A DNA stretch of 64,000 bases from Agrococcus lahaulensis DSM 17612 (GTDB lineage: Bacteria; Actinomycetota; Actinomycetes; Actinomycetales; Microbacteriaceae), in contig NZ_AULD01000006.1 of the NCBI RefSeq assembly GCF_000425105.1, positions 372,001 through 436,000 of the forward strand, in the 5' to 3' direction. This document shows positions 53,711 to 64,000 of the stretch, in pieces. Under the pieces are notes generated by a model, which saw only the letters and a program-made list of their open reading frames with translations, was not told the origin of the DNA and made no database searches. Numbering within the stretch: the stretch's first letter is position 1; each line of letters starts with the position of its first letter. A program made the translations under genes and the position numbers.

Positions 53711-54472
53711 GTGATCGATCCGCTCACGCTGCTGCTCTACGCGGCGGCGATCTTCGTCGCGACGGTCGCCCAGCGCGTCGTCGGGCTCGGCTTCGGGCTC
53801 GTGATGGGCCCGGTGTCGACGATCGTCGCCGGCCCGATCGCGGCGGTGCCGCTCAACTGCATCTTCGCCGTCGTCGCGTGCTCGCTCATGCTGCCGGGCG
53901 TGTGGCGCGACGTCGACTGGCGACGGCTGACATGGCTGCTGCTGCCCGCGGTGCCCGCGAGCGTCGCGGGGCTGCTGCTGGCGCGCGTCGTGTCGGCGGA
54001 TGCGCTCCGCATCGCGGTCGGGATCCTCGCGATCGCGGGCGTGCTGATCTCCGTCGTCTTCACGCGCTCGCGCCACACGCTCGACGGCCCGGGCACGCGC
54101 ATCGGCTCCGGCCTCGCGATCGGCGGCTTCAACGCCGCGGTCGGCGTCGGCGCCCCGCTCGTCGGCATCTACGCGCTCGTGAGCCGCTGGGATCCGATCG
54201 TGCTCGCCGCGACGATGCAGCCCTTCTGGGTCGTGCTCAACCTCGTGACGCTCGGCCAGCGGGCGGTGCTCGTGCCCGAGGGCTTCCCCGAGTGGCCGTG
54301 GTGGGCGTGGGCTGGCGCCTCGGCCGCCGCTGCGCTCGGCACGCTGCTCGCCCACCGCATCGCCCACCGGGTGCCCGCGGGCCTCGCGCGCGCGGCAGTC
54401 ATCGTGCTCTCCATCGTCGGTGGCGTCGCCGTCATCGGCACCGGCATCGCGGGGCTCCTCGCGACCGCTTGA
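53711..54472 (+). CDS. TauE/SafE-family transporter (paralogue 1), 253 aa
   Basis: Eight hydrophobic segments; family features GLGFGLVMGPVSTIVAGP and IGGFNAAVGVGAPLVGIYAL. Members export sulfite or other sulfur anions. Closely resembles the gene at 55908 throughout (PLNCIFAVVACSLMLPGVWRD versus VNLYGALACLVILPSVWRD). GTG start. The two copies frame a dithiol flavoprotein and its MerR regulator. Confidence 0.9.
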   Translation: MIDPLTLLLYAAAIFVATVAQRVVGLGFGLVMGPVSTIVAGPIAAVPLNCIFAVVACSLMLPGVWRDVDWRRLTWLLLPAVPASVAGLLLARVVSADALRIAVGILAIAGVLISVVFTRSRHTLDGPGTRIGSGLAIGGFNAAVGVGAPLVGIYALVSRWDPIVLAATMQPFWVVLNLVTLGQRAVLVPEGFPEWPWWAWAGASAAAALGTLLAHRIAHRVPAGLARAAVIVLSIVGGVAVIGTGIAGLLATA

Positions 54473-54499
54473 GCCCGCGGCCCGTGCCGGGGGCGCGGC

Positions 54500-55426
54500 T
54501 CACGCGATGAGCTCCCGCACGATCCCCGCGGCCGCGAGCTGGCCGGCCGCCGCGGCCGCGATGACGGAGTGCCCGCCGGAGAGCGCCGCATCGCCCGCGG
54601 CGAGCACGCGCGGCACGCTCGTGCGGCCGAGCATGTCGACCTCGATCGTGCCGTCGGGCCGCATGGCGCAGCCGAGCACGTCGGGCAGCGTCGAGCCCTG
54701 CCGGAAGTCGCCGCCCGCGAGCACGCCGGTGCACGGCAGCGCCGTGCCGTCCTCGAGCTCGATCGCCGTCAGCCGGCCGCCGTCCTCGACGACACCGGTC
54801 GCGCACCGCTCGTCGACCTCGATGCCGCGGGCCGCGAGCGCCGCTCGCGCCTCCCGGTCGACGGGCAGCCCGTCGGTGAGCCACGTCACGTGCTCGGCCA
54901 CGCCCGCCATGATGCGCGCGACGTGCTCGCGCTGCGGCTCGCCGCCGAGCACGACGACCCGGTCGCCGAGCTCGTGGCCGTGGCAGAACGGGCAGTGGGC
55001 GACCTGGCCGCCCCAGTGCCGCGCGAGACCGAGCGGCAGCGGCACGTCGGCGACGCCCGTCGCGAGCAGCAGGAAGCGCGCCTCGAGCCGCTCCCCGCTG
55101 GCGAGCTCGACCGCAACGGCGCCGTCCCCGACCTCGGCGGCGGCGACCCGGCCGTCGACGAGCCGCACGGTCGCGTAGCCGGCGAGCTGCTCGCGCGCCA
55201 CGGCGCGGAACTCCGCGGGCGGCGTCCCGTCGCGCGAGACGACGTTGTGCATGTGCGCGGCGGATGCGTTGCGACCCGGACCGGCGTCGACGAGCGCGAC
55301 GGAGCGGTGCACCCGCGCGAGCGTGAGCGCGGCCTGCAGCCCCGCGGGGCCGCCGCCGACGACGATGCAGTCGAGCGGCTCGGAGCCGGCTCGCGAAGGG
55401 TCCTGGACGAGGTCGAGCGTTGCCAT
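54500..55426 (-). CDS. Thioredoxin-reductase-like FAD/NAD(P) oxidoreductase, 308 aa
   Basis: FAD loop VVGGGPAGLQAALTLARV, active dithiol HCPFCHG (CxxC), NADPH-binding VVVLGGEPQREHVARI, and C-terminal VLAAGDAALSGGHSV. Shorter and more divergent than TrxB, in the class of HTH-linked or bacilliredoxin-like reductases. I place the start at ATG 55426, since the promoter -10 ends 7 nt upstream; the upstream ATG 55438 overlaps the promoter. Confidence 0.9.
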   Translation of the reverse strand: MATLDLVQDPSRAGSEPLDCIVVGGGPAGLQAALTLARVHRSVALVDAGPGRNASAAHMHNVVSRDGTPPAEFRAVAREQLAGYATVRLVDGRVAAAEVGDGAVAVELASGERLEARFLLLATGVADVPLPLGLARHWGGQVAHCPFCHGHELGDRVVVLGGEPQREHVARIMAGVAEHVTWLTDGLPVDREARAALAARGIEVDERCATGVVEDGGRLTAIELEDGTALPCTGVLAGGDFRQGSTLPDVLGCAMRPDGTIEVDMLGRTSVPRVLAAGDAALSGGHSVIAAAAAGQLAAAGIVRELIA

Positions 55427-55433
55427 GCGCACC

Positions 55434-55464
55434 AGCATGTGACTTCATGTCGACATGAGGTCAA
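55434..55464 (-). promoter_or_regulatory. MerR-type promoter/operator with 19-bp spacer
   Basis: On the minus strand TTGACC (55459-55464), a 19-bp spacer, then CATGCT (55434-55439), 7 nt before the reductase ATG. The spacer contains the near-perfect dyad TGACTTCATGTC/GACATGAGGTCA (55440-55463, 11 of 12 pairs). A long spacer filled by a dyad is the hallmark of MerR-activated promoters. It also overlaps the merR start, so autoregulation is likely. Confidence 0.75.
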
Positions 55465-55889
55465 GTCTGCTGTCGATCGGCGAGCTCGCCGCCGAGTTCT
55501 CCCTCGCCCCGCACGTGCTGCGCCACTGGGAGGCCGAGGGCGTGCTCGAGCCCACGACGCGCGTGGGCGGCAAGCGCCGCTACGACGAGAGCGCGCGCAT
55601 GCGCATCGGCACGATCCTGCGCGCACAGGACGCGGGCATGTCGCTCGCCACCATCCGCTCCGTGCTCGCGACCGAGAGCGCCGCCGAGCGGCACGCGCTG
55701 CTCGCCGACCACGTCACCCGGCTCGAGCGCCAGCAGGCGGAGCTCGAGGCCGCGCTCGCCGTCATCCGCCACCTCCAGTCGTGCACCCACAGCGACTTCG
55801 CCCGGTGCCCGGGCTTCCGCGACCTCATCACCGCCGAGCCGCAGCCGATCGCGCACTCGGCGCGCCTGCACCGTCGCGCATCCCCCTGA
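55455..55889 (+). CDS. MerR-family transcriptional regulator, 144 aa
   Basis: Winged helix LLSIGELAAEFSLAPHVLRHWEAEG, RRYDESARMRIGTIL, then a dimerisation coiled coil (VTRLERQQAELEAALAVI) and a C-terminal CTHSDFARCPGF with two cysteines that could sense a thiol-reactive compound or metal. Acts on the divergent reductase promoter. Confidence 0.93.
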   Translation: MRSSLLSIGELAAEFSLAPHVLRHWEAEGVLEPTTRVGGKRRYDESARMRIGTILRAQDAGMSLATIRSVLATESAAERHALLADHVTRLERQQAELEAALAVIRHLQSCTHSDFARCPGFRDLITAEPQPIAHSARLHRRASP

Positions 55890-55907
55890 GCACCTACGCT
55901 GACGGCC

Positions 55908-56660
55908 GTGGACCTCCTCTCCCTCGCCGTCGCGGCCGTCGCCGTCTTCATCGGCGCGGCGGGGCAGCGCATGATCGGGATGGGCTGGGGGCTCGTCGTC
56001 ACGCCGGCGGTCGCGCTCGTGGCGGGCCCGCTCGCGGCGGTGCTCGTCGTCAACCTCTACGGCGCGCTCGCGTGCCTCGTGATCCTCCCGAGCGTCTGGC
56101 GCGACATCGACTGGCGGCGGCTCGCGTGGCTCGCCGTCCCCGCGGTCGCGATGATGGTGCCGGGGCTGCTGCTCGCGAGGGGTGCGGACACGGATGCGCT
56201 GCGCATCGTCGTCGGCGTCATCGCGGTCGTCGGGGTGGTCGTCTCGGTCGCCTTCACGAGCAGCGCGCGGGCGCTCGACGGCCCGCCGCTGCGCGTCGCC
56301 GCGGGGGCGACGATCGGCGTGCTCAACGCGAGCGTCGGCATGGGCGCGCCCGCGCTCGGCATCTACACGCTGCTCTCGGGCTGGCAGGACCGCACGTTCG
56401 TCGCGACGATGCAGCCGTTCTGGGTGATCGTGAGCGGCGTGATCGTCGCGATCCGCCCGGTCGTCGCCCCCGAGGGCGCTCCCGAGTGGCCCTGGTGGGG
56501 ATGGGCGCTCATCGTGGTCCCGGTCGTCGCGGGCGTGCTGCTCGGCAACCGGCTCGCGCACCTCGTGAACCGCACGGTCGTCAAGTGGTCGATCATCGCC
56601 CTCTCGCTCGCGGGCGGCCTCGCGCTCATCGTGACGGGCACGACCGCGCTGCTGGCCTAG
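55908..56660 (+). CDS. TauE/SafE-family transporter (paralogue 2), 250 aa
   Basis: Same family and clear similarity to the gene at 53711; eight hydrophobic segments, GMGWGLVVTPAVALVAGP, VLNASVGMGAPALGIYTL. GTG start, TACGCT at 55895-55900 supports leaderless expression. Probably exports sulfite or another organosulfur product of the redox system between the copies. Confidence 0.9.
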   Translation: MDLLSLAVAAVAVFIGAAGQRMIGMGWGLVVTPAVALVAGPLAAVLVVNLYGALACLVILPSVWRDIDWRRLAWLAVPAVAMMVPGLLLARGADTDALRIVVGVIAVVGVVVSVAFTSSARALDGPPLRVAAGATIGVLNASVGMGAPALGIYTLLSGWQDRTFVATMQPFWVIVSGVIVAIRPVVAPEGAPEWPWWGWALIVVPVVAGVLLGNRLAHLVNRTVVKWSIIALSLAGGLALIVTGTTALLA

Positions 56661-56729: not shown

Positions 56730-56790
56730 TCAACCGGACAGCCGACAGGGCGCGACAGCATTCGGCTCGCCCGCCCGACTATCCGGTTGA
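56730..56790. repeat. Long-range inverted repeat between convergent genes
   Basis: TCAACCGGA (56730-56738) and TCCGGTTGA (56782-56790), with an inner GCCGA/TCGGC pair. It could fold as a multi-branch terminator; the right arm lies in the last codons of the AstE-like gene. Confidence 0.4.
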
Positions 56791-57738
56791 AGATCCTTCA
56801 GGCTCAGCGAGGTGCGCGACCGCATCGCCCGCGTGCACGATCGGCGCGCGGGTGAGGCCGATGACGATGCCGGCGCGGTCGGCGCGCACGATCCGGCCGC
56901 CCGTGCCGAGCGCATCCGCCACCCGGCCGAGCCGCGCGCCCGACTCGACCCGGTCGCCGAGCTCGACGTCGAGGTGCAGGATCCCGGTGCCGCGAGCGCG
57001 CACCCAGCCGCTCGCGCGGCACTCGAGCGACGCATCCGCCGCCTCGTCGTCGTCGAGCATCCCGAGCGCGGCGAGCACGCGCAGCACGCCCGCGACGCCC
57101 ACCTCGATCGGCTCCTGCTCGAGCCGCAGCGCCTCGCCCGCCTCGTAGAGCAGCGCGATCGCGCCCGCCTCGCGCGCGGCCTGGCGGAGCGAGCCGTCGC
57201 GCAGCTTCGCGTGCAGCATGACGGGAGCACCGAACGCGGCAGCGAGCCGGCGCGTCTCGGGGTCGTCGAGGTCGGCGCGGATCTGCGGCAGGTTGTCGCG
57301 CCGGTCGGAGCCCGTGTGGAGGTCGATGCCGACGTCGCAGCGCGCGACGACCTCGGTCATGAGCAGGTGGGCGATGCGGCTCGCGAGCGAGCCGCGCGCC
57401 GAGCCGGGGAACGAGCGGTTGAGGTCGCGGCGATCGGGCAGGTAGCGGTCGCCGTTCAGGAACCCGAGCACGTTGACGACCGGCACGGCGATGAGGGTGC
57501 CGCGGAGCCGCTTGGGCGACACCTGCGCGAGCACCTGCCGGATGACCTCGACGCCCACGACCTCGTCGCCGTGGATGGCGGCGTCGATCCAGACGACCGG
57601 CCCCTCCTCGCGGCCGTGCAGCACGCGCACGGGGAGCGAGACGTCGCCGCCCGTCACGAGCCGGGCGATCGGCAGCTCGACGCCCTTCGCCTGGCCGGCG
57701 CGCACGCGCACGCCGCCGATCGCGAACGACTCACGCAC
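56779..57738 (-). CDS. AstE/aspartoacylase-type M14 zinc carboxypeptidase-like protein, 319 aa
   Basis: Zinc ligands in IHGDEVVG (HxxE) and the third His in GIDLHTGSDRR; NPRPD-type arginine stretch RRDLNRSFPG and acidic ALLYEAGEALRLE. Family cleaves amide bonds of N-acyl or glutamyl compounds. It overlaps the RimB-like gene by 8 bases and lies beside a RimK-like ligase, so it may trim glutamate or peptide tails added by RimK. Confidence 0.88.
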   Translation of the reverse strand: MRESFAIGGVRVRAGQAKGVELPIARLVTGGDVSLPVRVLHGREEGPVVWIDAAIHGDEVVGVEVIRQVLAQVSPKRLRGTLIAVPVVNVLGFLNGDRYLPDRRDLNRSFPGSARGSLASRIAHLLMTEVVARCDVGIDLHTGSDRRDNLPQIRADLDDPETRRLAAAFGAPVMLHAKLRDGSLRQAAREAGAIALLYEAGEALRLEQEPIEVGVAGVLRVLAALGMLDDDEAADASLECRASGWVRARGTGILHLDVELGDRVESGARLGRVADALGTGGRIVRADRAGIVIGLTRAPIVHAGDAVAHLAEPEGSSTG

Positions 57739-58219
57739 CGGCGCGGCCCCGGTTCTTGAGCCGCACGGTGCGCGCGGGACGGCCGCCGAGGTACGAGCGC
57801 GCCGAGTCGACCGCGAACCCCTGGCGGAGCGCCTCGCGCCCGACGAGCAGCCGGAAGCCCATCTCGTCGCGGCGCGCGAGCGTCACCTCGGTGAGCACCT
57901 CGCGCCCGAGCAGCGCGAGCGCCGTGCGGATGACGATGCGCTCCTGCTCGTGACCCGTCGAGGAGCGGACGAGCCGGCGGTCGTGCACGGGCACCTCGAC
58001 GACGACGGCATCGGCAGCCGAGCGCTGCCACGGGTGCACCGAGAAGCGCACCCAGTTGGCGCCGTCGCGCGTCGACTCGACGATGTCGAACGCGTGCAGG
58101 GCGCTCGTGCGCGCGCCGGTGTCGAGCTTGGCCTTCACGTGCGGCACGCCGAGGTGCGGCAGGCCGACCCATTCGCGCCAACCGGCGATCGCAGGCCTGC
58201 GAGGATGGTCATCGCCCAT
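57731..58219 (-). CDS. RimB-like retropepsin (ATP-dependent zinc protease family), 162 aa
   Basis: VKAKLDTGARTSALHAFD holds the catalytic D-T-G of the retropepsin-like domain, and the tail FRLLVGREALRQGFAVDS is the usual family end. In Pseudomonas and others RimB forms a pathway with RimK. ATG 58219. Confidence 0.88.
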   Translation of the reverse strand: MGDDHPRRPAIAGWREWVGLPHLGVPHVKAKLDTGARTSALHAFDIVESTRDGANWVRFSVHPWQRSAADAVVVEVPVHDRRLVRSSTGHEQERIVIRTALALLGREVLTEVTLARRDEMGFRLLVGREALRQGFAVDSARSYLGGRPARTVRLKNRGRAGA

Positions 58220-58256
58220 AGGCCCCCATCCAAGCAGGAAGGCAGGTCGACCTCGC

Positions 58257-59453
58257 ATGAGGCTCGCCATCCTCTCGCGCGCTCCGCGCGCCTACAGCAC
58301 CCGCAGGCTCCGCGCCGCGGCCGCCGAGCGCGGCCACGACGTCAAGGTGCTCAACACCCTGCGCTTCGCGATCGACCTCTCGGGCGAGGCGCCCGACCTG
58401 CAGTTCCGCGGCCGGCAGCTCACCGACTACGACGCGATCCTGCCGCGCATCGGCAACTCGATCACCTACTTCGGCACCGCGGTGGTGCGGCAGTTCGAGC
58501 AGATGGACGTCTACACACCCAACACCGCGAACGGCATCGCCAACTCGCGCGACAAGCTGCGGGCGACGCAGATCCTCGCGAGGCACGACATCGGGATGCC
58601 TCCCACGACGTTCGTGCGCGACCGCGCCGACGTGATCCCCGCGATCGAGCGCGTCGGCGGCGCACCGGTCGTGCTGAAGCTCCTCGAGGGCACGCAGGGC
58701 ATCGGCGTCATCCTCGCGCCCACGATCAAGGTCGCCGAGGCGATCATCGAGACGCTGCAGAGCACCAAGCAGCAAGTGCTCATCCAGCGCTTCGTCGCCG
58801 AGAGCAAGGGCCGCGACATCCGCGCGCTCGTCGTCGGCGACCGCGTCGTCGCCGCGATGCGGCGCAGCGCCCAGGGCGACGAGTTCCGCTCGAACGTGCA
58901 CCGCGGCGGCAGCGTCGAGCCGGTGACGCTCGACCCCGACTTCGAGCGCGTCGCGGTGCGCGCCGCGCAGATCATGGGCCTCAAGGTCGCGGGCGTCGAC
59001 ATGCTCGAGGGCAACGACGGCCCGCAGGTGATGGAGGTCAACTCCTCCCCCGGGCTCGAGGGCATCGAGCGCGCGACGCGGCTCGACGTCGCGGGCGCGA
59101 TCATCGACTACATCGACAACCAGGTCGCGTTCCCGCAGATCGACGTGCGCGAGCGGCTCGCCGTCTCGACGGGCTTCGGCGTCGCCGAGCTCGTGGTGCA
59201 CGGCGACGCCGACCTCGTCGGCAAGCCGCTCGACGCGTCGGGGCTCCGCGAGCGCGACATCACGGTGCTGACGCTGCACCGCGGCACGACCGTCATCCCG
59301 AACCCGAAGGGCACCGAGGTGCTGCACGCCGAGGACCGGCTGCTGTGCTTCGGCCGGCTCGAGGAGATGCGCTCGATGATCCCGGCGCGGCCGAAGCGCC
59401 GGGCGCGGGTCAAGAAGCTGCCGAAGGTGCCGCTGCCGCCGCAGGAGGACTGA
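58257..59453 (+). CDS. RimK-type ATP-grasp glutamate ligase with C-terminal RCK-C-like domain, 398 aa
   Basis: N-terminal RimK domain (LAILSRAPRAYSTRRL), ATP-grasp (PVVLKLLEGTQGIGVILAPT, GRDIRALVVGDRVVAAMRR, VAGVDMLEGNDGPQVMEVNSS) to about residue 290, then ~70 residues (ELVVHGDADLVGKPLDASGL ... LLCFGRLEEMRSM) that look like a TrkA-C/RCK-C ligand domain, then a basic tail. Divergent from RimB- and AstE-like genes by 37 bases. Target protein (S6 in classical RimK) unknown here. ATG 58257. Confidence 0.88.
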   Translation: MRLAILSRAPRAYSTRRLRAAAAERGHDVKVLNTLRFAIDLSGEAPDLQFRGRQLTDYDAILPRIGNSITYFGTAVVRQFEQMDVYTPNTANGIANSRDKLRATQILARHDIGMPPTTFVRDRADVIPAIERVGGAPVVLKLLEGTQGIGVILAPTIKVAEAIIETLQSTKQQVLIQRFVAESKGRDIRALVVGDRVVAAMRRSAQGDEFRSNVHRGGSVEPVTLDPDFERVAVRAAQIMGLKVAGVDMLEGNDGPQVMEVNSSPGLEGIERATRLDVAGAIIDYIDNQVAFPQIDVRERLAVSTGFGVAELVVHGDADLVGKPLDASGLRERDITVLTLHRGTTVIPNPKGTEVLHAEDRLLCFGRLEEMRSMIPARPKRRARVKKLPKVPLPPQED

Positions 59454-59472: not shown

Positions 59473-62427
59473 TCAGGCGACCGGCGCGGCCGCCTCGGCG
59501 AGCACCCCCTCGGCCCACTCGAGCGCAGCCTCGGTCGCGGGCACGGGCCCGCCGGCATCGTGCCGCCCGTACTCGCCGACGCGCTCGGCGCCGCACGCCG
59601 CGAGCGCCTCGGCGACGAGCTCGCTGCCGCGCGAGTACGTCTTCGCGTAGCTGCGGTCGCCCATCCCGAAGGCCGCGAAGCGCACGCCGCGGAGATCGGG
59701 GCGCTCCTCGACGAGCGCGCGGAGGAACGGCCGGGCGCTCGTCGGCACCTCGCCGTCGCCGTACGTCGAGCAGACGAGCAGGTGGAGGCGGCTCGCATCG
59801 AGGTCGCCCGGCGCGGCGTCGGCGATGTCGACGACCTCGACCGCCGCCCGGCCCGCGAGGCCGCGCCGCAGCTCGTCGGCGACGAGCTCGGCGCCGCCCG
59901 ACTCGGTGCCGAACAGCACCGTCACCGGCAGCCCCGCCCCCTCGGTCGCGGTCTCGAGGCGCTCGACCTCCGGCAGCGGGATCGTCGCGTCGCGCGCAGC
60001 CTCGAGCAGCGCGGCGCGCGAGCGCAGCTTCGACCGCGAGCGCCCGGGCGCCGCGCCGAGCTGCTCGCGCACGTCGATGCGCCGCCAGCCCTCGAAGTCG
60101 GTCTCCCCCTCGACCGGCGGCAGCCCGTCGCGGCCCGCCCCGATGGCGCCGGCCTCGAGGTCGTCGGCGATGAGGCGCGCGAGCTCTCGCGCGTCGGTGC
60201 GCTGGTCGGGGATCGTGCCGCGCGGCCCGCGCCGCAGCCAGCCGGCGGTGTAGAGCCCCGGCTCGACCCGGCCGCTCGCGTGCGCGCCCGGTTCGACGAG
60301 GCACTCGTCGTCGGCGGCGAAGCCGACGGCCGTCACGATCGCGTCGGCCCCGAGCTCGACCTCGCCGTCGGCACCGCGGAAGACGGCCCGCTCGACCCGG
60401 CCGTCGCCCTCGATGCGCGCGGGCGAGAGCCCGAACCACCAGTGCACCTCGACGCGCGGCTGGGAGGAGGGCTCCGCGACCAGACCCCGCACCGCATCCG
60501 CCCGCGCGTCCTTGCCCGGCTCGATGCCCTCGAGCCCGGCGCCGTGCACGCGATGCGCAACGCCCGGCAGGCCCGCGAGCTCGCGCACCATGACCGGGTC
60601 GAAGCGCGCGGCGCTCGGGGCGCTGCGGCCGACGACGTGGATCGTGCGCACGGCACCGGCGAGCCGCTCGTGCGCCTCGTCGTCGACGTCGGTGCCGCCG
60701 AGTCCCTCGGCGTCGCGCGCGAGCAGGCGCACGACGTCCATCGCGACGTTGCCGTGGCCGACGACCACGACGCGCTCGCCGAGTGACGGCGCCTCGCCCT
60801 CGTCGGCGTGCGCGTTGAGCAGCCGCGTGATGCGGCCGGCGCCGTGGACGCCCTCGAGCGCGTCGCCCGGCACGTCGAGCGGCCGATCGGCGCGCATGCC
60901 GGTCGCGAGCACGACGGCGTCGTAGGCGCCTCGGAGCGCGTCGAGCGGCACGTCGACGCCGACGCGCACGTTGCCGCGGAACCGCACGCGCTCGTGCTGG
61001 AAGAGCCGGTCGAACTGCCGCGCGACCGACTTCGTGCCGGGGTGGTCGGCGGCGACGCCGGAGCGCACGAGCCCGTACGGCACCGGCAGCGCGTCGAGCA
61101 CCTCGAGCTCCGCCGCCGGGAAGCGGCGGCGGAGCGCCTGGGCGGTGAAGCAGCCTGCGGGGCCGGCGCCGACGATCGCGATGCGCGGCGCGGCCGGTGC
61201 GGCGGCTGCCGGCGCGGCGACGACCGTCGCGGGCTCGGCGACCGAGCGCCACCGCACGGGCAGGCTCGTCATGCCGCGGAAGACCCAGCCGGTGATCGTC
61301 GGGGGCGCCTCGGGCACGACGTCGAGCCCGCGCAGCCGCTCGAAGAGCATGGGCAGCGCGACATCGGCGACCTCCGAGCGCGCGACCCACGCGCCGAGGC
61401 ACACGTGCACGCCCTTCCCGAAGGCGAGGTGCGGCTTGACCTCGCGGCGCACGTCGAAGCGTGCGGCGTCCTCCCACACGCGCTCGTCGCGGTTGGCGGA
61501 GAGGATGCAGATGCCCAAGCGCGCGCCGGCGGGCAGCCGCACGCCGGCGAGCTCGGTGTCGCGCGTGACCTGCCGCGAGTAGAGGCCGATCGGCGCGACC
61601 CAGCGGATCGTCTCGTCGAACGCGGCGTTCCAGAGCGAGGGGTCGGCCTCGACCGCGCGCCGCTGCTCGGGGTGCGTCAGCAGCGCCCACGCGGCCACGC
61701 CGAGCGCGTCGCGCGGCTCGTTGAGCCCGCCGCCGATCGTCATCTTGACGTTGGCGCGGATGCGCTCGATCGGCATCTCGTAGTCGGGGATGCGCAGGAG
61801 CTGCGACAGGAGCGACTCGTTCGGGTTCGCCGCGTGCCACGGCAGCACCTCGTCGAGCGCCGCGTCGACCTCGTCGAACGAGCGCATCCCCTTCGCCCAC
61901 ACCTCGGGATCGTCGGCGTAGTTGCCCGTCGCGTCGATCAGCGTCTGCGACCAGCGCTGCAGGTCCTCCTGCCGGGCGTTGGGGAGGCCGATGATCTCGC
62001 GCAGGCTCTCGGCGGCGTAGGGGGCGGCGAAGTCCCAGATGAGGTCGGCGCCCGGCCCCTTCTCGACGAGCTCGTCGAGGTAGCGCTCGGCGTTCCGCTC
62101 GAACGACGAGCGCCACACGCGCTGCACGACCCCGGGTCGCAGCGCCGGCTGCCAGGCCTTGCGCTCGAGGTAGTGCTCGGGGTCGTCGCGCCGCAGCATC
62201 GAGTGGCCCATCGCGCGGATCTGCAGCGAGCCGCGCTCGTTCGCCGAGAACACCTCCTGGTCGAACTCCGTCTCGTGCACCGCCTCGTAGGAGGTGACGA
62301 GGTAGCGCCCGACCGCGGGCACCCAGTGCACGCCGCCCTCGGCGCGCAGGCGCTCGTAGATCGGGAACGGGTCGCGGTCCAGGTCGGGGATCGTCACCCA
62401 GTCGGCGACGGGAGCTTCGGTCGGCAT
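59473..62427 (-). CDS. Single-chain cytochrome P450 - FprA-type reductase - flavodoxin, 984 aa
   Basis: Three complete modules in one frame. Residues 1-395: P450 with ExxR (ETIR, 272-275), I-helix GGGLNEPRD (232-240) and heme loop FGKGVHVCLG with Cys343. After a Pro/Ala linker, residues 414-770: adrenodoxin-reductase/FprA-type fold with FAD loop VGAGPAG (419-425), NADPH loop VVVGHGNVAMDV (555-566) and GWLRRGPRGTIPDQ. Residues 834-980: flavodoxin with FMN loops FGTESGGAELVADEL, CSTYGDGEVPTSARPFL and FGMGDRSYAKTYSRG. The expected chain is NADPH to FAD to FMN to heme. ATG 62427 has AGGA 8 nt upstream. Substrate unknown; a LysR regulator is divergent. Confidence 0.94.
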   Translation of the reverse strand: MPTEAPVADWVTIPDLDRDPFPIYERLRAEGGVHWVPAVGRYLVTSYEAVHETEFDQEVFSANERGSLQIRAMGHSMLRRDDPEHYLERKAWQPALRPGVVQRVWRSSFERNAERYLDELVEKGPGADLIWDFAAPYAAESLREIIGLPNARQEDLQRWSQTLIDATGNYADDPEVWAKGMRSFDEVDAALDEVLPWHAANPNESLLSQLLRIPDYEMPIERIRANVKMTIGGGLNEPRDALGVAAWALLTHPEQRRAVEADPSLWNAAFDETIRWVAPIGLYSRQVTRDTELAGVRLPAGARLGICILSANRDERVWEDAARFDVRREVKPHLAFGKGVHVCLGAWVARSEVADVALPMLFERLRGLDVVPEAPPTITGWVFRGMTSLPVRWRSVAEPATVVAAPAAAAPAAPRIAIVGAGPAGCFTAQALRRRFPAAELEVLDALPVPYGLVRSGVAADHPGTKSVARQFDRLFQHERVRFRGNVRVGVDVPLDALRGAYDAVVLATGMRADRPLDVPGDALEGVHGAGRITRLLNAHADEGEAPSLGERVVVVGHGNVAMDVVRLLARDAEGLGGTDVDDEAHERLAGAVRTIHVVGRSAPSAARFDPVMVRELAGLPGVAHRVHGAGLEGIEPGKDARADAVRGLVAEPSSQPRVEVHWWFGLSPARIEGDGRVERAVFRGADGEVELGADAIVTAVGFAADDECLVEPGAHASGRVEPGLYTAGWLRRGPRGTIPDQRTDARELARLIADDLEAGAIGAGRDGLPPVEGETDFEGWRRIDVREQLGAAPGRSRSKLRSRAALLEAARDATIPLPEVERLETATEGAGLPVTVLFGTESGGAELVADELRRGLAGRAAVEVVDIADAAPGDLDASRLHLLVCSTYGDGEVPTSARPFLRALVEERPDLRGVRFAAFGMGDRSYAKTYSRGSELVAEALAACGAERVGEYGRHDAGGPVPATEAALEWAEGVLAEAAAPVA

Positions 62428-62526: not shown

Positions 62527-63450
62527 ATGGATGCCCTCGACGCGCCAGCGTTCACGCTCCGGCAGCTCTCCTACCTCGTGTGCGCGGCCGACGAGGGGAC
62601 GATCGCGGCCGCCGCGGCTCGGCTGCACGTGTCGCCGTCGGCGATCTCGGAGGCGATCAGCGAGCTCGAGCGCGAGCTCGGCTCGCAGCTGGCGGTGCGC
62701 CGGCGGGCACGGGGCCTGACGCTCACGAGCACGGGGGCGGATGTCGTGGCTCGCGCGCGCGGGCTGCTCGCGACCTCCCGCGAGCTCGAGACCTCGCTGC
62801 GCGGCGCCCCCGGCGAGCTCGTCGGGCCGATCACGATCGGCTGCTACCCCACGCTCGCGCCGACGATCCTCCCGCCGCTCCTGGCCGGCTTCGGCCGAGC
62901 GCACCCGCGTGTCGAGCTCGACATCGTCGAGGCGACGCACGACCGGCTCGAGGGCCGGCTCGAATCGGGTCGCATCGACGTCGCCTTCGTCTACGACACG
63001 CTCGTGCCGGGCGAGCCGCGCCGCGCGAAGCTCTTCGAGCTGCCGGCGCACGTCGTCGTGGCGGGCGACGACCCGCTCGCGGCGGGCGGCTCGGTGCGCC
63101 TCGCCGAGCTCGCCGAGCGCGACCTCATCCTGCTCGACGCGCCGCCCTCGAGCGAGCACACCCTCTCGCTCTTCGCCGCCGCGGGCGTCACGCCGCGCGT
63201 GCGCCATCGGGTGCAGAGCTCCGAGGCCGTGCGCGCACTCGTGGGCCGCGGCCTCGGCTACGGCATCCTCGTGCAGCGGCCCGCGAACCCCGCGAGCTAC
63301 GAGGGCTACCCTGTCGCCATGCTCGAGATCGCGCCGCGCGTGCCGCCCGTCGGCATCGACGTGATCTGGCCCGCGTCGCCCGAGCCGACCGCCCGCACGC
63401 GCGCCCTCATCGACTTCGCGCGCTCGCTCCCCTGGCCGGGCCGGCGGTGA
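62527..63450 (+). CDS. LysR-family transcriptional regulator, 307 aa
   Basis: N-terminal HTH (FTLRQLSYLVCAADEGTIAAAAARLHVSPSAISEAI), then the two-lobed co-inducer domain (GPITIGCYPTLAPTILPPLL ... RVRHRVQSSEAVRALVGRGLGYGIL). CTCGGAGGAG ribosome site. Divergent from the P450 gene with 99 bases between, so it is the likely activator of it. Overlaps the next gene by 4 bases. Confidence 0.93.
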   Translation: MDALDAPAFTLRQLSYLVCAADEGTIAAAAARLHVSPSAISEAISELERELGSQLAVRRRARGLTLTSTGADVVARARGLLATSRELETSLRGAPGELVGPITIGCYPTLAPTILPPLLAGFGRAHPRVELDIVEATHDRLEGRLESGRIDVAFVYDTLVPGEPRRAKLFELPAHVVVAGDDPLAAGGSVRLAELAERDLILLDAPPSSEHTLSLFAAAGVTPRVRHRVQSSEAVRALVGRGLGYGILVQRPANPASYEGYPVAMLEIAPRVPPVGIDVIWPASPEPTARTRALIDFARSLPWPGRR

Positions 63451-63848
63451 CCGCGCTCGTCTGGGGCATCAAGGCGTCGCTCCTCGACTACGTGCGCGGC
63501 CGCGGCGCCGGCACCGTCGAGGCCGGCGACGGGGCGACGGCCGAGGGCGACGCCTTCCGCTTCCCCGGCGGCGACGACGGCGCGTTCCTCGGGTCCGTGA
63601 CGCTCACCGCGCACAGCGGCATGCTGCGCCTCGTCATCGCCGAGCCGGCGATCGTCCGGTCGCCGGACCGCTGGCGGCTCGAGATCGCCGACCCCCACGA
63701 GCCCGGCGCGCGCCTGGCCTTCGCGACCATCGCGGCGTTCGACGGCGAGCGCGCCACGGGCACCGCGCTCACGCAGGACGGCGCCGACCTCTTCTTCGGG
63801 CCCTACGAGCCGGGCACGCCGCTCGACGACCCGCGCGTCGAGCCCTGA
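63447..63848 (+). CDS. HtaA-like domain protein, cytosolic, 133 aa
   Basis: Begins VTALVWGIKASLLDYVRGRGAG; the W-x-I-K-x-S-x-x-x-Y-V pattern and GTVEAGDGATAEGDAFRFP are typical of HtaA domains (Pfam HtaA), known from heme uptake in corynebacteria. No signal peptide is present, so it is intracellular. GTG start in the LysR stop (GTGA). A role with heme or the P450 next door is inference. Confidence 0.68.
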   Translation: MTALVWGIKASLLDYVRGRGAGTVEAGDGATAEGDAFRFPGGDDGAFLGSVTLTAHSGMLRLVIAEPAIVRSPDRWRLEIADPHEPGARLAFATIAAFDGERATGTALTQDGADLFFGPYEPGTPLDDPRVEP

Positions 63849-63912: not shown

Positions 63913-64000
63913 TCAGCGGTCGACGGCCGCCTCGCGGTCGACCTCGGAGAGCGCGACGAACTCGTCGCCCTTCTTCCAGCCGGCCCACTTGCCCGACTTC
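63913..64000 (-). CDS. C-terminal end of an unidentified protein (cut by the window)
   Basis: Last 28 residues are visible, ending WKKGDEFVALSEVDREAAVDR-stop at 63913. Lys/Trp/Gly-rich (GKWAGWKKGDEF) then acidic. Too short to identify. Confidence 0.55.
   Translation of the reverse strand, partial: KSGKWAGWKKGDEFVALSEVDREAAVDR

Follow-up and report, generated by a model that had tools for sequence, protein, structure and literature searches.

A probable self-sufficient P450 of Agrococcus carrying an FprA-type reductase and a cindoxin-like flavodoxin in a single chain

Bacterial P450s that draw their electrons from flavodoxins are known in several arrangements. The P450cin system belongs to class III and the XplA/XplB system of RDX-degrading rhodococci to class VI, and we take cindoxin reductase to be of the adrenodoxin-reductase/FprA type. 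P450cin uses cindoxin reductase (FAD) and cindoxin (FMN), according to a review (PMC9687028), and XplA/XplB is described as combining a P450 and a flavodoxin domain with a flavodoxin reductase (PMC8081977). Interest in self-sufficient P450s stems from their working without added partners; a paper of 2025 gives classes VII and VIII (CYP116 and CYP102) as those with natural self-sufficient fusions (PMC12126322).

The locus described here joins such modules in one gene. We analyzed a 64,000-nucleotide stretch (the window) of a 2.68 Mb Agrococcus genome, in which a sequence-only reading had reported one uninterrupted 984-codon frame encoding a P450, a reductase and a flavodoxin, without naming its strand. 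The frame is present on the minus strand, from an ATG at 62427 to a stop at 59473-59475, with zero internal stops (Table 1). The Pfam domain search proposed in that reading returned the same module order, with p450 (54 bits), Pyr_redox_2 (47.5 bits) and Flavodoxin_1 (78.5 bits) all above cut-off. Because the frame is open upstream of the ATG too (1010 codons from stop to stop), the start codon is chosen, not established. The opposite strand holds an 880-aa frame overlapping the gene, so in this high-GC DNA the length of the fusion frame alone is little proof; we accept the frame as real because it is conserved across copies. The survey for proteins of the same order, also proposed earlier, yielded 40 distinct intact fusions, found in Agrococcus, in Microbacterium and in further families of the order; in Agrococcus pavilionensis RW1 the best-matching segment has 99% identity with the window's protein. 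An artefact of assembly or sequencing that joined separate genes could draw on two relatives that carry frameshift splits, but across several families of the order 40 distinct copies repeat the one-frame architecture; on this ground we rejected an assembly artefact and regard any such explanation as exceedingly improbable. A promoter/terminator scan gave 0 sites.

Table 1. Features of the fusion gene and its upstream neighbors (window coordinates)
Feature	Position	Strand	Basis
Fusion gene: P450, adrenodoxin-reductase/FprA-type reductase, flavodoxin	59473..62427	(-)	984 aa; 40 distinct intact copies including its own
P450 domain, residues 1-395	61243..62427	(-)	phmmer to 6g71, 555 bits; 61% identity to CYP1232A24
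Haem Cys343 codon	61399-61401	(-)	motif FGKGVHVCLG
Linker 1, residues 396-411, Ala-rich here	61195..61242	(-)	alignment; pLDDT <50 over 368-410
Adrenodoxin-reductase/FprA-type FAD-NAD(P)H domain, residues 412-800	60028..61194	(-)	phmmer, Foldseek, motif count
Segment between reductase core and flavodoxin, residues 801-832	59932..60027	(-)	alignment
Cindoxin-like flavodoxin (FMN) domain, residues 833-984	59476..59931	(-)	Flavodoxin_1, 78.5 bits; cindoxin 4oxx
Divergent LysR-type regulator (label by reading)	62527..63450	(+)	homologue beside 26/28 distinct fusion loci
Small conserved protein, downstream of regulator gene	63447..63848	(+)	neighborhood comparison
Metabolite/H+ symporter gene, 3' end, continues beyond the window (L126:11914-13593)	63913..64000	(-)	TIGR00883, 363.6 bits, below cut-off 443.45

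The P450 part, for which Cys343 had been read as the haem ligand, gives a p450 match above cut-off and holds that cysteine within FGKGVHVCLG. Its top structure match by phmmer is PDB 6g71, titled 'Structure of CYP1232A24 from Arthrobacter sp.' (555 bits), followed by the O-demethylase GcoA (~162 bits). A P450 is placed in a CYP subfamily when it is over 55% identical to one of the members; at 61% identity to 6g71 over 390 residues, and with 6g71 as the sister of the fused clade (see below), the domain falls within subfamily CYP1232A. The usual P450 I-helix motif includes an acid-Thr pair; the I helix here reads GGGLNEPRD, and Asn-Glu is found in 40/40 fusions and likewise in CYP1232A24. Since CYP1232A24 is reportedly active, Asn-Glu need not block oxygen activation in the fusion.

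The middle domain was confirmed as an FprA/adrenodoxin-reductase-type module, matching adrenodoxin reductase (1cjc, bovine-type, 168 bits) and FprA (1lqt, 167 bits) in phmmer; FprA 1lqt also ranks first for this part in a Foldseek search with an AlphaFold model (TM-score 0.78 by target length). It contains GAGPAG at residues 420-425 and GHGNVA at 557-562, and its R601-S602 align with Arg199-Arg200 of FprA, where Arg200 is presumably a ligand of the NADPH 2'-phosphate. Serine occupies the Arg200 position in every one of the 40 fusions, the first arginine being kept, and in 27 of 32 separate reductases; Arg-Arg occurs only in the three FprA-like ones. The NADPH specificity of the fusion is therefore uncertain, and NADH may serve as coenzyme. 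A preference for NADH, or no preference at all, in place of the NADPH-driven reaction first read here, would agree with this invariant serine and with XplB, which is listed with NADH as reductant (PMC8081977); retention of the first arginine speaks against it, as does cindoxin reductase, which is given as NADPH-dependent (PMC9687028). We consider such a coenzyme preference a serious possibility that falls somewhat short of probable.

The last 155 residues have cindoxin as their best PDB match (4oxx, 89.7 bits), ahead of MioC (63.8 bits) and the BM3 FMN domain (59.4 bits), and the Flavodoxin_1 match spans residues 837-968 of 984. Judged by these best matches, the C-terminal domain is probably a cindoxin/MioC/P450-reductase-like flavodoxin rather than a classical long-chain FldA, so that of the 'long flavodoxin' read here earlier the flavodoxin stands and the long-chain type does not. 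Between residues 393 and 413 the span is 19 residues in the window's protein and 15-39 across 28 aligned copies (31 fusion loci minus three exact duplicates), and the stretch from residue 770 to residue 834 measures 61-69 residues in 27 of these copies and 115 in L022. The AlphaFold model has a mean pLDDT of 71.3 and a pTM of 0.53, with residues 368-410, including linker 1, below 50; it was rejected for domain docking, being too weak for its domain placement to be trusted.

These modules suggest a P450cin-type chain contained in one polypeptide. NAD(P)H would deliver hydride to an FAD bound by the middle adrenodoxin-reductase-like domain, from which single electrons would pass to an FMN in the C-terminal cindoxin-like domain. 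The latter would swing on flexible parts of the chain, dock at the proximal face of the N-terminal P450 and reduce the haem twice per turnover. The most likely electron route through these modules is NAD(P)H-FAD-FMN-haem, which would make the fusion a complete monooxygenase.

All three domains are under purifying selection. For 8 pairs hand-picked from 17 loci, Nei-Gojobori dN/dS was 0.05-0.27 in the P450, 0.15-0.35 in the reductase and 0.11-0.38 in the flavodoxin; linker 1, which is short, is looser than the domains, at 0.26-2.4, with one of the 8 pairs not computable. In the 28-copy alignment, mean conservation is 0.83 in the P450, 0.71 in the reductase, 0.77 in the flavodoxin and 0.35 in linker 1, with pairwise identity as low as 54%; the most distant of all copies found still have 59% identity with the protein encoded in the window.

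Full-length fusions were present at 6 of 9 loci in one scan of named genomes, including Microbacterium radiodurans, and in 16 of the 24 Agrococcus genomes scanned (plus one split), at least 11 of 299 of the family, at least 10 of 396 of the order, and 15 of 60 of another family in the same order, f7 (plus one split). The genome samples of these scans overlap, and at most two candidates per genome were scored for nearly all genomes listed in the family, order, class and phylum scans. Beyond the order, the 296 genomes sampled from the class and the 296 from the phylum yielded no fusion except that of the own genome, with misses possible. Among plasmid records, 1281 gave some match, all below 60% identity (best 25 of 1281 listed); in 10 listed records one place covers more than 80% of the query, 8 of these being annotated as separate genes and 2 unannotated. 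The 40 intact fusions are the fused rows of the domain trees, with frameshifted L101 excluded and L146/L149, whose contigs have equal lengths, counted as L006/L008. Relatives split by frameshifts, which sequencing error or decay may explain, occur at L101 (genome G687) and L119/L123 (genome G1244); the breaks fall within the reductase part and close to linker 1.

The P450 tree, of 71 rows, unites the 40 fused domains and, besides them, only the P450 of frameshifted L119 in one clade (SH-aLRT 98), with CYP1232A24 as its sister (SH-aLRT 98). The fusions also group together in the reductase tree, with L119 (SH-aLRT 96), and in the flavodoxin tree (SH-aLRT 97). Tree rows leave out loci of genomes already included, P450 matches below 33% identity and matches covering less than 60% of domain length; all three are quick trees with long branches, which according to the tool's warning may meet. 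A single origin of the fusion is likely from these groupings. We also considered a separate origin of the f7 fusions, which is unsupported: the f7 copies lie inside the one clade.

Nine free-standing P450 relatives were examined, sharing 50-61% identity with the P450 domain encoded in the window. A 2Fe-2S ferredoxin gene adjoins all nine and a putidaredoxin-reductase-like gene eight of them (Pfam confirmed Fer2 at three loci and Reductase_C at four), and a neighbor search with one query each, from L090, at E 1e-6 found neither gene at any of 43 fusion loci, a count that includes frameshifted L101 and two duplicates (L146, L149). With ferredoxin neighbors at free-standing loci only, the fused line would use another type of partner. 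CYP1232A24 itself is reported, in a review, from a genomic cluster with a flavodoxin and a flavodoxin reductase (PMC9687028), and the partner switch would therefore predate the fusion.

Within the family, reductase and flavodoxin are repeatedly encoded as a pair of separate genes, often beside a P450 of ~25% identity. In the pairs closest in the reductase tree (L025/L164 and L029/L165) the flavodoxin gene comes first, near a P450 of 25% identity. We think it probable that the fusions constitute an undescribed natural class, with a cindoxin-type chain in one polypeptide and the module order P450, FprA-type FAD domain, flavodoxin. It would have been born once in this order of Actinomycetota, when a CYP1232 P450, the other relatives of which use 2Fe-2S ferredoxins, was joined to a reductase/flavodoxin module taken from the system of a different P450. 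The gene order of the nearest pairs is opposite to that of the fusion, and we count this against our explanation. Related separate pairs adjoining divergent P450s, together with a second P450 match in the own genome (27.4 bits), would also fit a fused reductase-flavodoxin that mainly serves other acceptors in trans, its tie to its own P450 being incidental; this is very unlikely, however, given three domains held in one frame in 40 copies of one clade under purifying selection.

Two further arrangements were seen. A Rhodococcus pyridinivorans plasmid (L163, NZ_CP113799.1 491544-494565) carries genes for a P450, an FAD-dependent oxidoreductase and a flavodoxin-domain protein in the order of the fusion; at the two junctions there is an overlap of 4 bases and a gap of 8. 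In genome G053, L100:5778-8747 (-) encodes a 989-aa fusion of an FprA-type reductase, a flavodoxin and then a distant P450; this type is full length in 1 of 299 family genomes, and three others have separate relatives at 53-67% identity. Though from one genome, L100 suggests that reductase/flavodoxin/P450 fusions arose more than once.

On its 5' side, the fusion gene diverges from the LysR-type regulator gene, by which it is probably controlled; homologues of the regulator also lie beside several free-standing relatives. Directly beyond the window's end, 2.9-8.0 kb upstream of the fusion's start and with the symporter gene between, is an hpa (homoprotocatechuate) cluster encoding a fumarylacetoacetate-hydrolase-family protein (NF009399, 724 bits, cut-off 444), HpaE (653 bits, cut-off 638) and HpaD (447 bits, cut-off 321). 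HpaG models fell below their cut-offs at this hydrolase, and beyond HpaD are genes labeled by eye as HpaH and HpaI. Together, hpaD and hpaE flank at least 16 of the 40 fusions (14 of the 16 in Agrococcus, plus those of M. radiodurans and genome G597; G033 has the hydrolase only), and they are absent from the examined flanks of the other 24, including all 15 of family f7. A symporter at least 50% identical lies near at least 31 of 40. The regulator, hpa and symporter counts were read from listings, and those for hpa and the symporter are lower bounds, as flanks were mostly 8-9 kb and shorter at contig ends (L012, L134, L141, L151), with almost nothing downstream of the fusion covered in L012 and L141. 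Of the nine free-standing relatives, two lie close to hpaE and the hydrolase gene, and for one of these hpaD is close by as well. In f7, hpaD is present in 15/15 genomes with an intact fusion, there outside the examined flanks, versus 28/45 without (one-sided Fisher p 0.003, relatedness ignored).

CYP1232A24 is said to demethylate 3,4-dimethoxyphenylacetate to 3,4-dihydroxyphenylacetate, the substrate of HpaD. Because of the kinship to CYP1232A24 and the hpa neighbors, we propose O-demethylation feeding homoprotocatechuate cleavage: the P450 would strip O-methyl groups off methoxylated phenylacetates, its likely substrates, probably to yield 3,4-dihydroxyphenylacetate, which the neighboring hpa enzymes would then cleave. 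The hpa neighbors point only to homoprotocatechuate, or a precursor of it, as the probable product, and so leave room for another P450 reaction, such as ring hydroxylation of phenylacetates feeding the same pathway. We consider this rather unlikely, however: the own genome already encodes, ~173 kb away from the fusion, a protein of the HpaB family, which comprises 4-hydroxyphenylacetate 3-hydroxylases, so that ordinary 4-hydroxyphenylacetate hydroxylation may not need the fusion P450, and the top P450 structure matches are CYP1232A24 and the O-demethylase GcoA. As a whole, a self-sufficient P450 with a P450cin-type chain in one polypeptide, probably acting in methoxyphenylacetate O-demethylation under probable LysR-type control, is an account that we hold quite likely.

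On the other side of the fusion, window positions 56779-59453 hold genes labeled by eye as an aspartoacylase/desuccinylase-like protein, a small retropepsin-like protease and an ATP-grasp ligase of RimK type; the ligase gene and the fusion gene are oriented toward each other. At 53711-56660, genes for a MerR-type regulator and a thioredoxin-reductase-like protein are enclosed by two genes for TauE/SafE-like permeases (also labeled by eye).

How does the fusion compare with described systems? It shares with P450cin the path from an FAD reductase through a cindoxin-type flavodoxin to a P450, cindoxin being the best solved match of its flavodoxin. An FprA-type FAD reductase and a cindoxin-type FMN carrier are thus both found here, but where P450cin is a system of three separate proteins with a P450 of another family, the fusion is one frame. 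In Rhodococcus DN22 the reductase gene adjoins the P450 gene; we take these genes to be XplB and XplA. XplA/XplB differs in having the flavodoxin at the N-terminus of the P450 and the reductase separate, whereas the fusion has its flavodoxin C-terminal. The 61% identical CYP1232A24 shares the I-helix motif and is the sister of the fused clade, but its structure is that of a 405-residue P450 chain, and the review mentions partners and no fusion (PMC9687028).

Among single-chain systems, CYP102/P450 BM3 (class VIII) likewise has haem, FMN and FAD domains in one polypeptide, but with FMN in the middle and an FNR-type FAD domain last; in the fusion the FAD domain is of FprA type and central, and the FMN domain closes the chain. 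CYP116B/P450 RhF (class VII) is also a self-sufficient single chain, with an FMN plus 2Fe-2S reductase domain, whereas the fusion chain gave no Pfam match to Fer2 (2Fe-2S ferredoxin) up to E 1. A BM3-like or RhF-like assignment was rejected, as both domain order and domain types differ. Among the papers listed in searches of the open-access literature (PMC), from which most subscription journals are absent, we found no description of a P450, FprA-type reductase and flavodoxin fusion; within that scope, the earlier suggestion that this architecture had gone undescribed as a P450 class holds. The modules, the partner set and the type of chain are already known, and the one-chain form and its order are likely new. 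The fusion family is a natural joining of flavodoxin and reductase with a reductase of FprA type, not FNR-like, and an FprA-type reductase driving a fused flavodoxin would represent a third self-sufficient design. If the proposed methoxyphenylacetate demethylation is true, the fusion is a candidate one-component biocatalyst. Related systems exist as separate proteins, as fusions and in other module orders, which opens the evolution of partner choice to testing.
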